Below are positions 1,378-8,717 of a stretch of DNA of 14,864 nt, one piece after another. Each line of letters starts with the position of its first letter. Within the stretch, counting starts at the first letter, position 1. Origin of the DNA: Sulfolobaceae archaeon (GTDB lineage Archaea > Thermoproteota > Thermoprotei_A > Sulfolobales > Sulfolobaceae). A model generated the notes under the pieces. That model did not search any database. It was given only the letters and a program-made list of their open reading frames with translations, and was not told where the DNA came from. Location of the stretch: contig JAPYVG010000038.1 in assembly GCA_028277025.1 (NCBI GenBank), forward strand, positions 1 to 14,864, in the 5' to 3' direction. The translations under genes were made by a program, and so were the position numbers.

Positions 1378-2568
1378 ATGTCAAAAATTTCTCAAATAGA
1401 GCCTATTGTTATAGCACAGACAGAGAAAGGTAGCGCTACTTGGGCGTCTTCGATGGTGATAGTTAGAGTAATAACTTCTGACGGAATGGTAGGATACGGT
1501 GAGGCCGTACCTACCTTAAGAGTAATAAATGTTTATAATACTATAAAGCAAGTAGCTCAAGGTTATATAGGTAAAGAAGCTGAAGAGCCAGAGAAGAACT
1601 ATCATGAGTGGTATAAGCAAGATTTTTATTTGGCAAGGTCTTTTGAATCTGCAACTGCTACAAGTGCGATAGACCAGGCATTATGGGATATTTTAGGAAA
1701 AGAACTAGGGGCTCCAATTTATAAGCTTTTAGGTGGTAAGGTTAGGGACAAGATCCCAGTTTACGCTAACGGCTGGTATCAAGACGCGGTTACACCGGAA
1801 GATTTTGCTGAAAAGGCTAAGGAGGTTATAAGTAAGGGTTATAGGGCGTTAAAATTCGATCCTTTTGGTCCTTATTACGATTGGATTGATGAAAAGGGTT
1901 TGAGGGAGGCAGAAGCTAGGGTTAGGGCTGTTAGAGAAGCTGTAGGGGAAGACGTAGATATTTTAATTGAACATCATGGTAGATTTAATGCTAATAGTGC
2001 TATAATGATTGCCAAAAGTCTTGAGAAATATAATCCGGTTTTCATGGAAGAGCCAGTTCACCACGAAGATGTTGAGGGCTTAAGAAAATATAAAGATTCA
2101 ATAAAGACTTTAAAAGTAGCTTTAGGTGAGAGGTTAATAAGCCTTAAGGAAGCAATGTTTTATGTATCAGAAAGATTAGTGGACATATTACAGCCAGACC
2201 TATGTAATATTGGTGGGATAACTATTGGTAAAAAGGTGATAAGTTTAGCCGAGGCTTTTGATGTCGAAATAGCTTTTCATAATGCTTTTGGTTCTATACA
2301 GAATGCCTATTCTCTCCAATTGAGTGCAGTTACTCCTAATTTGTACCTCTTAGAGAATTTTTATGACTGGTTCCCCCAATGGAAGAGGGATATAGTTTAT
2401 AACGAGACGACAGTCGAAGGCGGACACGTTAAAGTTCCGGATAAGCCTGGAATCGGAGTAAGTATTAATGAGAAGGCTATTGAGAATATGAGAGCTGAGC
2501 CTAAAGAGTTAGGAGTTGTTGAAGAACCAGTATGGGTTGTTAAGGGAACTTGGAAAAAATTCAGTTAA
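1378..2568 (+). CDS. gnaD: Gluconate (galactonate) dehydratase, enolase superfamily
   Basis: Predicted to dehydrate D-gluconate, and probably D-galactonate, to the 2-keto-3-deoxy acid in the archaeal branched Entner-Doudoroff pathway. The 396-residue protein has the mandelate racemase/muconate lactonizing enzyme layout: an N-terminal capping domain (about 1-125) and a barrel bearing KFD (159-161), the metal-ligand glutamates in LIEHHG (E198), FMEEP (E224) and LGERL (E251), D274 in QPDL, H301 and E326. Long stretches such as [20 protein letters not shown] match what I recall of the characterised Saccharolobus solfataricus enzyme, including the C-terminal [12 protein letters not shown]. It is Mg2+-dependent in the family. 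The start is ATG, with a TATA box 25 bp upstream. Unlike in S. solfataricus, no KDG aldolase, KDG kinase or GAPN gene is adjacent. It converges on the glycanase gene, with 37 bp between stop codons. Confidence 0.93.
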
Positions 2569-2605: not shown

Positions 2606-4375
2606 TCATCCAACTTGACTGAATTTCTCACTTATTTTTACCCAATAGCCTTGAAGTTTCGTAGTACTATTTTGTAACCCTTCTCCGTAAAATGTTTCTT
2701 CGTATCCTTTACCGTTTATCAAGAATAGTGAAGTTAAAGTTTTTGTAGTAATAGCATTATTAGAGGTTAAGGCAACTAGTACTGCTCCGCCGTATTTATT
2801 AATAATCTCAAGTATTCCACTGAATCCCCCTACAGCCGTTTCGTTTTCCAATGTATAAATTGTGTTGTTATAGGCATTAAACGTGTAACTATAATAGTAG
2901 AAAAGCCCTAAAGATAATGTGCCGTTTTGAATATAACTCAAATTATAAGGAATTACGTGAGGATTAGAGATTGGTGTAGCAAAAGCACCTATTTGGAGAA
3001 GTATCGGATAATTCCCTTTAATGGATAATGAAGAGTTATATAACGATCCTTTTTCAACAGCGATCTCATAAAAGTTCTCATCTAAATATGCCTTCTCATA
3101 TATAGAATTAAATGTCTGGTATGCGGCAAATTTCCCTCCTTGAACTACATCACTATATTCCTTACCGTGTTCGAAGTATAAAAGTGCTGAATAATTAAGT
3201 AAGTAATTTCCAGTTTCTTGGTAATATATTGCAGAGAAACCTGTAAAGAATAAAGGTGTAGAATCTAAGTAACGCGAGTAGGCTGTTAGTAATTTACCCC
3301 CAATTAGCGGATTTGATTGGTTCACCCATAATAACAATACACCAGCAATGTCCCAATCAAAATACGGTGATCCAGTTATTTGGTACGCAGTTTCAAGGTT
3401 TGTTACGCACACAGTTATATCTGCGTGATTCCCTAGTGCTAGCATTGGTGTTAGGTCTATGAGATAAGGTGAGTGGAATGATAATGTATTTATAGATGTC
3501 AGAGGTTTCCACCAGAATAAGTCTATCCCCCCAGTGTAAATAGTCTCATAAGGATTAACTATTCCTACTAAGCTATTGTTGTAAAAAATTAATATACTCC
3601 TAGTTGCGGGTTCATTTGCATACCAGAACTCATCAAGTCCTCCGCCTTCCTCGTATAACAACATTTCCATTTTGTAAGTACCATTAGGTATCGTAAGTGG
3701 GCAAGAAATTGAAGGCTGAATGGAGTTAAGAATTACATAAGAATAGCCGTAATTAGATAAGAAAAGTGGTATAAACTCGTTAGGTAATCCTTGCGGTTTA
3801 GGCCCAGGGTAGAGGTATAACGTAACGTTCATGTGATAAATTCCAGTTATTCCTATTTTAGCATCATAGTAATTGGTAATCACTAGCTGGAAAGTCACAT
3901 TTCCTTGTAACAAGTTTTCGAAAAGCGTTAAGTCTGCTTCTGATGTAGAGTTATCTAGCTCTTGTGTTGAACCCCAGAACACTGGTACTCCATTTACAAA
4001 TATATAGGCAGCCCTATCATACTGTGTACCGTTTGTCTCCCAAATGCTTACATTCATTAAAATCATACTATAATTCCCTGGAGGGATGTAGACTGTTTCA
4101 TTAATTGGTCTCAGACCAGTATTATTAAATATAACATTGCTCGCTACTTTTACTTCAACCGGTGTAACATTAGGTGGTTTAATTTGATAAGCTTCGAAGG
4201 AATAGTAAGTTGGATCTACGTATCCGTTAAGGAAAGTTGAGGTTATATTGAATATTGGGAATACGGGGATCAATTGCTTCTCTCCACTACTCGCTTGATG
4301 AGTATATGCTATAGACAAAAACGGGGTTAGTGATAATAAAATTACAAAGAGTAAAAACAGACTACCTAATTTCAT
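2606..4375 (-). CDS. Secreted PNGase A-like peptide:N-glycanase
   Basis: Predicted to cleave the bond between asparagine and the first GlcNAc of N-glycans, outside the cell. A signal peptide (about 1-23, hydrophobic core LFLLFVILLSLTPFLSIA) precedes a mature region with the features of the plant/fungal PNGase A family (Pfam PF12222, from memory): YIPPGNYSMILMNVSI then YDRAAYIFVNGVPVFWGST (119-137), TGIYHMNVTLYLYP (177-190), GGGLDEFWYANEP (244-256), IYTGGIDLFWW (279-289) and LIDLTPMLALG (305-315). The plant enzymes carry the same blocks in the same order (QYDR..VWLGGVE..R.ST, TGVYHVNVTLLYY, G.DEFWYSNPP, FTGGI.PLFWEP, YDIDLTPFLG). No membrane anchor is seen. It carries many NxS/T sequons, so it may itself be glycosylated. 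It is the second gene of an operon: its ATG overlaps the peptidase stop (ATGA) and a GGTGA ribosome site precedes it. Activity is inferred from family; I cannot name the catalytic residues. Confidence 0.9.
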   Translation of the reverse strand: MKLGSLFLLFVILLSLTPFLSIAYTHQASSGEKQLIPVFPIFNITSTFLNGYVDPTYYSFEAYQIKPPNVTPVEVKVASNVIFNNTGLRPINETVYIPPGNYSMILMNVSIWETNGTQYDRAAYIFVNGVPVFWGSTQELDNSTSEADLTLFENLLQGNVTFQLVITNYYDAKIGITGIYHMNVTLYLYPGPKPQGLPNEFIPLFLSNYGYSYVILNSIQPSISCPLTIPNGTYKMEMLLYEEGGGLDEFWYANEPATRSILIFYNNSLVGIVNPYETIYTGGIDLFWWKPLTSINTLSFHSPYLIDLTPMLALGNHADITVCVTNLETAYQITGSPYFDWDIAGVLLLWVNQSNPLIGGKLLTAYSRYLDSTPLFFTGFSAIYYQETGNYLLNYSALLYFEHGKEYSDVVQGGKFAAYQTFNSIYEKAYLDENFYEIAVEKGSLYNSSLSIKGNYPILLQIGAFATPISNPHVIPYNLSYIQNGTLSLGLFYYYSYTFNAYNNTIYTLENETAVGGFSGILEIINKYGGAVLVALTSNNAITTKTLTSLFLINGKGYEETFYGEGLQNSTTKLQGYWVKISEKFSQVG

Positions 4376-7300
4376 TCTTTGCTCACCCCCTTACCTTTTC
4401 TAAGGATTAAAATTAACGCAATTAGAGCTAAAATTATACCTACTATACCTAATGAGATTGAAATAATTTTTAGATTTGAAATAGATGAGTTCAAAGTCAT
4501 AATAGATGAGTTCAAAGTAATTATTGGATATTCATTATTAATTTGGAGCGTATAGTGATATTCAATTCCGTCTGAAAACACTAGAGTTATTGTGTTAGAC
4601 CCTGGTGGTTCTTGCGCCGAATTGAATGGTATTACTATTTTAACACCACTACTTGTCTTTGAAATCATATAACTTACGGGTTTACCGTCCAACTCGACTT
4701 CCTTTATCGCTATAATATTACTGTTATTTGATGGGTTAGTTATCGTCAACGTTATGTTACTTACAGTCGTCGTTATGTTTTCTTCATAAGATATTGTTGG
4801 AGATGGTTGTAGGCTCATTTCTTCAACATTAATATAGTTAACTCCTTCAGTAGTGACATTGCTGTAAGTTAAGTTATATGCGTATGTTGTGTTTTCAAAT
4901 ACTGTGGATACTAAATCTATATTAGAATTAACGGCATTAACTCCACCGTTAACTATCTCTGATCCTATTATCTTGACTGTAGCGTTTTGAGCTTCAATAC
5001 TTCCAATTTTACTATCGATTATTGTTACGCTTCCACCTTTAATTATCAAGTTATTTATTTCTGAGTTTTGTATTACTAGACTAACTCCATTTAGTTCAAG
5101 TTTGTTCATGTAGACGTTATTCATTGTGTTACCGGCGATAAACGGTATTTGACTAATATTGCTGTTAGTAATTATCTCAGTTGGCATGTATATATAAGGT
5201 TGAATATAAGTATAAACTCCGTAAGATGGCACTGTATAGCCAGAGAAACTGTTGCCTACTATGGCTACTTTCCAAGGGCCTACGTAAGCATAAACTGGAG
5301 CACCGGGATATGAGATATTATTTGTTATTCCAGGTACTTGAACTAATGCAACCCATTCGTGTAACGTAGAATTGTATTGCATCGGTAGACCGTAACTGAA
5401 TTCTAGGAATATTTGTTCATTAATTAACTGTAACGGTTCTAAAGTCACTGTAAATAACCCTTCAGTAATGGGGGTACCGTTAGGATATGTTATGTTAGCT
5501 AATACTTTAATATATTCGCCTTGAATTAACTCCTTTATACCATTAATATGCACTACTGCATTGGCTGGGGCGACATAGAAATAATCAGTATAGTTCATCT
5601 CCTCTATTCCTATTGAACTATTATACCACCCCTCCATTACTACCTTATAAAAGCCTGGAGTAGCATTTCTGGGTATTGTGTAATTAACCTCATGGAACCC
5701 GAACAAATCATAAACACCAAACTGTGTGGCCTCGGTAGCTAATGTTGTATTAAGCTTTGCAATTAACTTTCCTTGTGGATTATAAATAAATACGTAGACG
5801 TTGGATGTAAATATCGCTAATCCGTTTTGGTCAAAGGTAAAGACTAGGACAGTTATATTTTCTCCGGGGGCAATTGAGGGGAACCCGTCATCTATCGGAG
5901 TAAAGACCAACCCCTCTAAATTTAGCCCTCCAAGCGTCTCATATAAATACGCATTACCATAAGTATCGTTTATCACCATAACATAAACTCCTTCTGGCGT
6001 TGGTGGGATTAAGGCGTAACTACCTTTATATAAGCCTGGGGTTGATGTTGGTAGTAATGTAACGTTAAACTCGTCTTTACCATTAAGTATAAATTGGGCT
6101 GTAAATGATGTGAAATTAACTGGTGTTAAATTAGGATAGTAAATACAAGCTTCTACTGTAAAAGGTTGATTAGGGGGTATTGACGCTGCATATGGGAACG
6201 GAATTGGTTCTATTATATCGATTGAGAGTCCCACATCTATTTCATAGACTCCACTACCGCTGTATTTACCAGAGGTGCCATTAATAACTATTAACCAAAT
6301 ATTTGGAGGCATTCCGGCCTTAATCGTAAAAGTACCTATCCAATAACTTCCATTATATATTAAAGGTACTTCGCCGACTAATCCTTCTGTGGAATAAATA
6401 TAGGCTGTAAATCCGCCAGAAGTCACTATTGTGTCGTTAGGGTAAGAGACTTTGGCTAATATCGAGAAAGTGGTATTATACATAAACCATGGATATTGTA
6501 CTCCCGGTTCTGTAGCTGTAACTGATATCGATAATTTAGGTATTGACTCATATTCTTCCACGGCCTTAAGTAATCCATACCAATCAACACTGCCTAATCC
6601 AGTCACTAAATTATAACCTTTATTGGCGGAATACAAGCCGTTATATCCTAACGTGATCTGGTGGAACACTTGATTGTATAGGGTAGTATTAGAATAAATC
6701 CAGTAAAGTATGTTATTAAGTAACCCTACTGGCTTATTCGTGACTGAAATTATATCAGAAACCATACCTGCCCATATAGGTGTAGCAAGACTAGTCCCAC
6801 CTATTACCGTTTCAACTCCTAATGCATATATTATTTCTCCAGTGTAAGGATTCGCATCTGCTGCAACATCTGGTACCGCTCTTGTCGTCCCATTTAATGA
6901 GTATTGATACCATGGTTTAGGATAATATGTACTATACCCTCCATCAGATGCAACATATGGGAAGAAAAACATCCCATCAGTGGACCAAGCAGTTTCATAG
7001 CCATACATTGCAGTAGAGTTTTGCATGGATAGATAGCCAGAAGTTACGTTAACAAATAATGTAGTCCCACCAACCGCGGTAACGAAAGGACTTGTAGCTG
7101 GATAAGAAACTCCTCCATAAGTCGTTAATCCACCAGCAGTTGCTCCTTCATCGCCAGAGGCTGCTAGGAAAGTTATTCCTTCAGCAGTTCCCAATTCGAA
7201 ATAGTAGTCCCAATAAGGTAAGTTTGGATATAATACTCCATCTTGAACAAAATAGAATCCAGTATCTCCCAGCACATTTTCTGGGATTCCAAAACTCATT

Positions 7301-8268
7301 GAAGTCACGTTTGCAATATCATTAGTTACAATATAGTCGATCGCTTCTGGAATGAATACGGGGGATGATGGAACTACAAGGACAATTTTTGCATAGGGTG
7401 AAATAGCATGGGCTGTTTCAACGTCTAAAGCCGTCTCTAAGTACCAACCAGTAAATAATCCGAATATTGGATGATATGGACCTATTGGAACTACTGTTAA
7501 GTTAACAGGTGGTAAGTCGAACTTTTTATCAAACGCTTGTAAATCTTGATATATTGTTGGGTCTCCGTAAGCGTCTATTATGGCTATAGTGGTACCTTTA
7601 CCTCCTTGAGTTATATTGTAAGCCCCAATTATATCTTGTGGGGAATACATATTTGCTGCGAATGACAAGTAACCAGAAAAATTAAACGGAGAGGACAAGA
7701 CCAATTTTCCGTTTATTATTTTGCCTAGAGTAATAGTATTAGTCTCGAAATAAATGTTTGTATAATTGGAAAGTCCTTGGATTAATACCCCAGAAAAGAA
7801 TGAGGGTAAAGTAGGATCTGAGACTGCCTTATAGAATATGCCATTATTAGACTCATACAATCCTAGCTTCACATTAAATGCTGACTCTACATCATTTACC
7901 GTTCCTTCAGCTATTAAGGCAAATGAAGATTTGTAAACTATTGTAAATCCCTTTGATTCTAGGTAGTTTATAATCTCTTGTTCCTTTTCGGTTTGAGCGA
8001 ACATAGAAATTAATTCTTCTCTAGATAGTTGCTTAATCTGATGAAATGCTACTTCTTGTGCTAAGAGGTAAAGTAAGTTTAGATTTTTAGGTGGAATGAG
8101 TATTCCTATACATATCGTATCCGATTGCGGTAAGTAACCTATGAAGTTAGCCTGAGTTGTAGGTCCTATGTAAGTTGCCTCGATTTCTGAGTTGGCAATT
8201 ATTAGATTTACTCCAGTTCCTAAAATTAGAATTAGGAGAAACAATAATGGTAGAATATCCTTACCCAT
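4372..8268 (-). CDS. Membrane-anchored S53 (sedolisin/kumamolisin-like) acid peptidase
   Basis: A large secreted serine-carboxyl endopeptidase. Order of parts: signal sequence (about 5-26); a Pro-kumamolisin-type activation domain (about 45-170); the subtilisin-fold S53 catalytic domain (about 200-570), with the Glu/Asp pair in WYLETALDVE (E278, D282), the oxyanion Asp in SGDEGA (D373) and the nucleophile in GGTSLATP (S493); several beta-sandwich, Ig-like repeats (about 580-1010); a short-turn beta-helix-like stretch (about 1050-1125); another beta domain; and a membrane helix (about 1268-1289) followed by the basic tail RKGKGVSKE. The protein should face the acid medium, tethered at its C terminus. 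Most S53 enzymes are only the pro and catalytic parts, so the extra 730 residues are probably a stalk or substrate-binding part. Two calcium-ligand aspartates usual in the family appear changed (Q537, N553). ATG at 8268 has a TATA box 26 bp upstream. It is the first gene of the operon with the glycanase. Confidence 0.95.
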   Translation of the reverse strand: MGKDILPLLFLLILILGTGVNLIIANSEIEATYIGPTTQANFIGYLPQSDTICIGILIPPKNLNLLYLLAQEVAFHQIKQLSREELISMFAQTEKEQEIINYLESKGFTIVYKSSFALIAEGTVNDVESAFNVKLGLYESNNGIFYKAVSDPTLPSFFSGVLIQGLSNYTNIYFETNTITLGKIINGKLVLSSPFNFSGYLSFAANMYSPQDIIGAYNITQGGKGTTIAIIDAYGDPTIYQDLQAFDKKFDLPPVNLTVVPIGPYHPIFGLFTGWYLETALDVETAHAISPYAKIVLVVPSSPVFIPEAIDYIVTNDIANVTSMSFGIPENVLGDTGFYFVQDGVLYPNLPYWDYYFELGTAEGITFLAASGDEGATAGGLTTYGGVSYPATSPFVTAVGGTTLFVNVTSGYLSMQNSTAMYGYETAWSTDGMFFFPYVASDGGYSTYYPKPWYQYSLNGTTRAVPDVAADANPYTGEIIYALGVETVIGGTSLATPIWAGMVSDIISVTNKPVGLLNNILYWIYSNTTLYNQVFHQITLGYNGLYSANKGYNLVTGLGSVDWYGLLKAVEEYESIPKLSISVTATEPGVQYPWFMYNTTFSILAKVSYPNDTIVTSGGFTAYIYSTEGLVGEVPLIYNGSYWIGTFTIKAGMPPNIWLIVINGTSGKYSGSGVYEIDVGLSIDIIEPIPFPYAASIPPNQPFTVEACIYYPNLTPVNFTSFTAQFILNGKDEFNVTLLPTSTPGLYKGSYALIPPTPEGVYVMVINDTYGNAYLYETLGGLNLEGLVFTPIDDGFPSIAPGENITVLVFTFDQNGLAIFTSNVYVFIYNPQGKLIAKLNTTLATEATQFGVYDLFGFHEVNYTIPRNATPGFYKVVMEGWYNSSIGIEEMNYTDYFYVAPANAVVHINGIKELIQGEYIKVLANITYPNGTPITEGLFTVTLEPLQLINEQIFLEFSYGLPMQYNSTLHEWVALVQVPGITNNISYPGAPVYAYVGPWKVAIVGNSFSGYTVPSYGVYTYIQPYIYMPTEIITNSNISQIPFIAGNTMNNVYMNKLELNGVSLVIQNSEINNLIIKGGSVTIIDSKIGSIEAQNATVKIIGSEIVNGGVNAVNSNIDLVSTVFENTTYAYNLTYSNVTTEGVNYINVEEMSLQPSPTISYEENITTTVSNITLTITNPSNNSNIIAIKEVELDGKPVSYMISKTSSGVKIVIPFNSAQEPPGSNTITLVFSDGIEYHYTLQINNEYPIITLNSSIMTLNSSISNLKIISISLGIVGIILALIALILILRKGKGVSKE
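4383..4388 (-). promoter_or_regulatory. Shine-Dalgarno site of the glycanase gene
   Basis: GGGTGA on the minus strand lies 7 nt before the glycanase ATG at 4375, inside the end of the peptidase coding sequence. This is the usual Sulfolobales pattern: a distal operon gene has a strong GGTG site while promoter-proximal genes are leaderless. Together with the 4 nt ATGA overlap it supports translation from one bicistronic message. Confidence 0.75.
4481..4518 (-). repeat. Tandem 17 bp direct repeat, 21 bp period
   Basis: ATAGATGAGTTCAAAGT occurs at 4481-4497 and again at 4502-4518. The 21 bp period is seven codons and encodes TLNSSIM-TLNSSIS just before the membrane helix of the peptidase, so the duplication keeps frame and simply lengthens the juxtamembrane linker. 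Confidence 0.85.
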
Positions 8269-8290: not shown

Positions 8291-8298
8291 TATATAAA
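8291..8298 (-). promoter_or_regulatory. TATA box of the peptidase-glycanase operon
   Basis: TTTATATA (minus strand), centred 26 bp upstream of the peptidase ATG at 8268, implies a leaderless operon transcript. It lies between the 3' end of the broken MFS gene (8335) and the peptidase, so the operon has its own promoter. Confidence 0.7.
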
Positions 8299-8334: not shown

Positions 8335-8717
8335 TTATGTTTTAATTTTCTCTTTAGAAACCTCTTCTAAGCATGCTCCTAAGGAAAACATTGTTGCTTC
8401 AATACCGTAAACCTTCTTCCTACCCCAATAATCACCTAAAAAGTCAAATAATAATTGGCCAATGATTGCAGACCATATGGCGATTGAGGCTAGTAAGCCA
8501 GTCCAAAAAGCTGAGTCTTGACCAGTTAGGTAATTAGAAAATCCTGGCAAGGAGATGCCAGCATATTTTGGTGAGTCTTGAAAAATTGCTAAAATATAAC
8601 TGATATTCAAGAGATCATAGGCGTCAGTAAAAAAGCCAATACCAGCACTATACCAAATCTTAATATGAGCAAAACTCAACTTTAGGTTGTCAATGCTCTC
8701 AAGGGATTATTTGACAT
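8335..8717 (-). pseudogene. Broken MFS transporter (PHS/sugar-phosphate symporter type)
   Basis: Remnant of a major facilitator protein, normally about 12 membrane segments and over 400 residues; here only about 120 remain. The original start is ATG at 8717, giving MSNNPLRAL; one base is missing near 8690-8693, after which the other frame continues DNLKLSFAHIKIWYSAGIGFFTDAYDL, the typical beginning of phosphate:H+-type MFS members (ALDNxKLS, GxGFFTDAYDL). The frame continues through segments 2-3 with the MFS motif A (GDYWGRKKVYG) and then jumps from MFSLGA straight to LEEVSKEKIKT and a stop. That ending looks like the normal C-terminal tail of such transporters (compare GKSLEEIS), so an internal deletion of roughly 300 codons is likely. 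An internal TTG at 8679 could still begin a 114-residue peptide, but a working transporter is not possible. Confidence 0.85.

Follow-up and report, generated by a model that had tools for sequence, protein, structure and literature searches.

Conserved linkage of an S53 peptidase gene and a PNGase A-family gene in heat- and acid-loving archaea suggests a module for extracellular glycoprotein degradation

We analysed a 14,864-nucleotide (nt) stretch of DNA from a Sulfolobaceae archaeon (contig JAPYVG010000038.1, assembly GCA_028277025.1; "the window" below), whose minus strand carries a pair of adjoining genes: the first encodes a 1298-residue S53-type peptidase (4372-8268) and the second a 589-residue protein of the peptide:N-glycanase (PNGase) A family (2606-4375). 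The two open reading frames (ORFs), their coordinates and the ATGA by which they overlap are as a first-pass annotation of this DNA had described them. The window yielded no tRNA and, at gathering thresholds, no Rfam match. The features of the pair are as follows.

4372..8268, minus strand: first gene, S53 (sedolisin/kumamolisin-like) peptidase (ORF, Pfam, PDB sequence matches, conserved residues)
2606..4375, minus strand: second gene, predicted secreted protein of the PNGase A family, PF12222 (ORF, Pfam)
7786..8154, minus strand: prokumamolisin activation domain, S53 residues 39-161 (PF09286, E 6.8e-18, 65.7 bits against a Pfam cut-off of 23.5)
6559..7656, minus strand: S53 catalytic domain, residues 205-570 (phmmer matches to kumamolisin chains)
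4375..6558, minus strand: S53 C-terminal region, residues 571-1298 (beta-sandwich domains, a stretch of short strands, a helix)
4372..4375, minus strand: ATGA overlap of PNGase start and S53 stop (sequence)
4383..4390, minus strand: Shine-Dalgarno (SD)-like GGGGGTGA, 7 nt before the PNGase ATG (sequence)
8291..8298, minus strand: TATA-like TTTATATA, about 25 nt before the S53 ATG (position read from sequence)
4016..4018, minus strand: Asp120 codon of PNGase, QYDR motif, proposed catalytic Asp (Asp in 51/51 archaeal and 16/16 outgroup rows)
3959..3961, minus strand: codon of PNGase residue 139, Glu in the window
3629..3631, minus strand: Glu249 codon of PNGase, DEFWY motif, proposed catalytic Glu (Glu in 51/51 archaeal and 16/16 outgroup rows)

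We assign the first protein to S53 because a phmmer search of PDB sequences returned kumamolisin, and also sedolisin, as its nearest solved relatives (best E 1e-29); besides the prodomain, Pfam reports a partial subtilase match (Peptidase_S8) on residues 308-511. The window protein carries E278, D282, D373 and S493, which we take to be the Glu/Asp/Ser triad and the oxyanion Asp. E278 and D282 are found in 34 of the 35 S53 rows adjacent to a PNGase gene (the other row has a gap) and D373 and S493 in all 35, and the peptidase is probably active in acid. In the C-terminal region, the short-strand stretch is read as a beta-helix and the helix at about residues 1267-1290 as a putative membrane anchor, and in the structural model this stalk fits a display of the peptidase beyond the membrane. 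The second protein matches PF12222 with an E of 5.4e-27 (94.9 bits, cut-off 25.3), its nearest solved sequence is PNGase Bb (9vla; E 1.2e-11, or 2e-19 with a profile), and structural alignment revealed the fold of the solved family member across most of the chain. By analogy to PNGase F we propose D120 and E249 as candidate catalytic residues, and the archaeal enzyme would hydrolyse the bond between N-acetylglucosamine (GlcNAc) and Asn. Both proteins have predicted signal peptides, and an NCBIfam search at an E of 0.001 assigned no family to either the S53 or the PNGase protein.

The position of TTTATATA is the usual TATA place for a leaderless archaeal transcript and suggests that the S53 gene is leaderless; a single promoter probably serves both genes, which are likely to be co-transcribed. 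Adjacent, co-oriented and closely linked, the genes form the junction expected of a bicistronic operon. Among 34 relatives, a 4-nt overlap occurs in 18, and in 33 the chosen PNGase start falls between -11 and +17 nt relative to the S53 end; in the remaining genome (G060) the chosen start is at +197 nt, and an ATGA is visible at the junction yet its frame does not run on. Upstream of the chosen starts lie SD-like matches, four to eight bases in length, a result that is biased because the automatic start choice favoured an ATG with such a match. The first-pass annotation had inferred from the letters alone a tethered S53 peptidase and a secreted PNGase A-like glycanase, joined by an ATGA overlap with a ribosome site; its family assignments agree with the PF09286, kumamolisin/sedolisin and PF12222 matches, the tether and secretion can be read from the sequence as it had claimed, and overlap and ribosome site are both present at the junction.

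To place the pair more widely, profile searches were run on 197 genomes of one archaeal order (order sample), with PF12222 matches in 50 genomes and PF09286 matches in 38. By profile alone, 32/50 PNGase genes are preceded by a co-oriented prodomain no more than 8 kb away; BLAST raised the count, to 34 of the 50 PF12222 genomes with a co-oriented S53 gene as the immediate upstream neighbour. Both families co-occur in 36 genomes, PNGase is found alone in 14, S53 alone in 2 and neither in 145 (Fisher p 1.6e-25, uncorrected for kinship). The pairing exceeds chance, since beyond PNGase and S53 the flanks vary and every other ORF cluster is limited to 16 or fewer of the 65 loci that we compared (some representing the same genome twice). 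A phylum sample of 398 genomes yielded PF12222 in 33 and PF09286 in 50 (49 over the cut-off) and added pairs in a Marsarchaeota G2 metagenome-assembled genome (MAG; G003, locus L008) and in G451 (L135); the latter is the same DNA as locus L011, and its PNGase reads as two overlapping ORFs with S53 directly upstream. In G274 (L136) and G385 (L137) the PNGase gene has no adjoining S53. Fourteen further loci, which partly overlap the sampled genomes, were kept out of the counts. The search of archaeal genomes for PF12222 beside S53, set beforehand as a check on the first-pass annotation, therefore recovered the pair in 34/50 genomes and in the Marsarchaeota G2 MAG, and the restriction to this one genome that the annotation had named as grounds for abandoning its proposal is excluded. 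The pair looks real and old in heat- and acid-loving archaea. As a side observation, the PNGase of Vulcanisaeta distributa (L012:9986-11784) also reads as two overlapping ORFs, and its close relative L136 has one 599-residue ORF.

The 36 rows with an adjoining S53 (34 genomes, the window and L008) require one label change in the PNGase tree (support 100/99); rows G052, G067 and L014 were placed in no group and left uncounted, with G052 and G067 falling inside the S53-adjacent part. Similarly, all 35 adjacent S53 rows lie inside one 39-row clade of the S53 tree. At PNGase position 139, which we take to be the equivalent of PNGase F Glu118, Glu occurs in the window, in the 36 genomes that have a PF09286 match and in 16/16 outgroup rows, and Gln in exactly the 14 PNGase genomes that lack such a match; L014, whose PNGase adjoins no S53, has Glu139. 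We ruled out that the 14 Gln139 rows form a single clade, as the PNGase tree, which has long branches, needs two changes.

Turning to the neighbouring genes, the commonest cluster other than the pair is that of the window's amino-acid permease, present in 16/65 loci; among the 34 pair genomes, 11 have a member of it in the flanks that were retrieved (the permease identity comes from a Pfam scan of the window's cluster member only). Genes flanking the PNGase in G052 encode a family 5 solute-binding protein on the upstream side and an amino-acid permease on the downstream side; L011 has an upstream gene for an oligopeptide ABC ATPase. Like the protease of L013 described below, these uptake-type neighbours are single cases, picked because they fit; unfitting ones among the 20 neighbours scanned are SecY, a tRNA synthetase, a helicase, a HAD hydrolase, an ABC-2 exporter, an FtsX-like protein, a polysaccharide deacetylase, cytochrome d1, V4R and a rubrerythrin-like protein. 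In the window itself, a 114-residue piece of a major facilitator superfamily (MFS) transporter lies at 8335-8679 (minus strand); it is apparently an N-terminal remnant, because a 489-494-residue ORF of the same cluster directly adjoins S53 upstream in six relatives. A gluconate/galactonate dehydratase-like gene (1378-2568, plus strand) is convergent with the pair, and a member of its cluster stands beside the pair in six sampled genomes.

A different arrangement was observed in a Desulfurococcales MAG (L013:302-10346), where an S8 subtilase, a long coiled-coil surface-like protein and a PNGase A follow one another on one strand, and this row may represent a second protease-glycanase association. 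It may resemble the tetrabrachion of Staphylothermus, a surface coiled-coil protein that reportedly has an associated S8 protease, STABLE; we know of no PNGase found with these two. Members of a coiled-coil surface-like cluster (c23) are encoded one or two genes upstream of PNGase in L063, L065, L083 and L085/L013 (a c23 match in L088 was dismissed as a spurious coiled-coil match), and in L046 and L077 the contig stops just upstream of PNGase. Peptidase pairing as a general rule for the 14 S53-less PNGases was unsupported: in a Pfam scan of the 20 chosen neighbours, which sampled 8 of these 14 genomes as well as other genomes, L013 (the same contig as L085) was alone in having an S8 peptidase.

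Building on the two families, their conserved active-site residues, the anatomy seen in sequence and model and the linkage, we propose, with a probability of about 0.58, that the S53-PNGase pair of thermoacidophilic archaea acts jointly in extracellular glycoprotein degradation. We infer the activities, co-transcription, order of action and cooperation, as well as the natural substrate, as follows. The S53 peptidase would be made as a zymogen and be held outside the cell, active in acid, by its C-terminal membrane helix and long beta-domain stalk, and the tight, SD-bearing junction would allow PNGase to be co-translated with it. Once secreted, the PNGase A-type enzyme would cut the GlcNAc-Asn bond to leave Asp and a free glycan, and this removal of N-glycans could open densely glycosylated proteins to the peptidase or clear away glycopeptides left over by the peptidase. 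The targets that we favour are glycoproteins of the cell's own kind, in turnover of S-layer and filaments or recycling of shed material, and the nutritional benefit would lie in the uptake of amino acids or peptides. Extracellular deglycosylation is plausible because acid-active bacterial relatives of PNGase exist, with pH optima, in the available parts of the reports, of 2.6 for PNGase H+ (PMC4231336) and 2 for another bacterial family member (PMC7348039), and because the S-layer of Sulfolobus acidocaldarius carries chitobiose-linked N-glycans, according to the available text of PMC2948927, so that the chitobiose-Asn substrate invoked by the first-pass annotation exists in that species.

Several observations weigh against joint degradation. 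First, peptidase activity was not observed in the extracellular polymeric substances of S. acidocaldarius biofilms, as far as the available text of PMC4550784 goes. Second, the acid proteases purified from the medium of peptide-fed S. solfataricus are thermopsins, and the terms 'S53' and 'sedolisin' are absent from the main text of that report in its available form (PMC3958906). Third, additional PF09286 places away from any PNGase occur in 31 of the 34 pair genomes, 16 of the 50 PNGases lack an S53 directly upstream, and the S53 clade includes four rows that do not adjoin PNGase (those of G052, G067 and G194, and the second S53 copy of G123). Finally, the 34 paired cases are not independent, since the linkage traces to one clade.

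The tether, as seen in sequence and model, could also serve a pair that edits specific surface proteins of its own cell (S-layer, pili or archaella), for example in growth, division or mating. Homologues are named from Metallosphaera and Acidianus, genera with chemolithotrophic growth, and PF12222 matches are confined to one place in each order-sample genome, though the Marsarchaeota G2 MAG G003 has two, which is in keeping with such surface remodelling. We nonetheless consider it unlikely, as there is no sign of substrate specificity and the ORFs for amino-acid permeases or peptide transport that lie close to the pair in some of the genomes are a better fit to nutrition. It is rather improbable that the two acid hydrolases merely share a transcript, each scavenging on a different substrate without cooperation. 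This would account for G052 and G067, in which the genes are apart and neither is lost (the S53 flanks match those of the paired G043 locus), for G176 and G194, which have the S53 prodomain but no PNGase (another gene lies downstream of S53 in G194), and for the 14 genomes with PNGase and no PF09286 match anywhere in the genome, some of whose assemblies may be incomplete; against it, the tight junction is widely kept (33/34) while the flanking genes differ. That the system strips and digests the surface glycoproteins of competitors is highly improbable: the hydrolases are predicted to be secreted and surface-exposed, and N-glycans usually differ from one archaeal species to the next (PMC11607397), but the scanned neighbours include no clear toxin or immunity gene (one L008 neighbour with a MazE-type DNA-binding match and a weak PhoU match is read as a regulator), and the spread over many named genera looks like housekeeping. 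Of the first-pass interpretation, which offered scavenging, turnover of the S-layer and attack on neighbours as purposes, the families, the tether and secretion, the tight junction, the archaeal conservation and the substrate in S. acidocaldarius hold up, and nothing that we saw speaks specifically for attack.

Returning to joint glycoprotein degradation, we tentatively entertain a broader version, in which archaea with chitobiose N-glycans resembling those of eukaryotes would have dedicated machinery at the cell surface that corresponds to lysosomal glycoprotein breakdown: a membrane-tethered acid S53 peptidase and a co-translated acid PNGase would remove the cell's own N-glycans and recycle its S-layer. 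The pairing of glycanase and protease may have arisen more than once, because the PNGase lineages from genomes without an S53 prodomain match carry Gln139, and one of these lineages, that of L013, stands in a row with another surface protease and an S-layer-like stalk. If true, this would be an archaeal N-glycan removal system, matched to the chitobiose-type N-glycan of Sulfolobus, that is undescribed in the literature matches listed. How an S-layer with heavy glycosylation is turned over in hot acid becomes a testable question in an archaeon amenable to genetics, and heat- and acid-stable PNGases would serve as reagents for glycan analysis.

The S53 and PNGase A families are themselves known, and in databases many homologues already bear the names glycopeptidase, peptide-N4-asparagine amidase or peptidase S53; the pairing of the two families is undescribed in the literature searched. 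Consistent with the first-pass annotation, which was aware of no archaeal system pairing the two activities, the literature matches listed include no S53-PNGase pair or characterised archaeal PNGase A, most subscription journals lying beyond the search. In the available text of PMC3958906, the thermopsin-like SsMTP proteases of S. solfataricus (SSO2045, SSO1175), produced on peptide-rich medium, are likewise extracellular multidomain acid proteases from the same archaeal order, but they belong to another catalytic family than S53 and are given no PNGase partner. PNGase F and zebrafish Ngly2 share 14-17% identity with the present PNGase, and their matches leave a further C-terminal part of it uncovered. 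Unlike the solved or characterised members of its own family (PF12222: PNGase Bb, PNGase H+ of Terriglobus roseus, PNGase Dj), the present PNGase is archaeal and S53-linked; it is known here from sequence and model and has 19% identity to a solved PNGase A-family member in structural alignment. Kumamolisin and sedolisin (MEROPS S53; PDB 1t1e, 1gt9, 1ga6) have the prodomain, triad and oxyanion Asp in common with the present S53 peptidase, which differs from them by its C-terminal stalk of about 730 residues and its predicted membrane helix.

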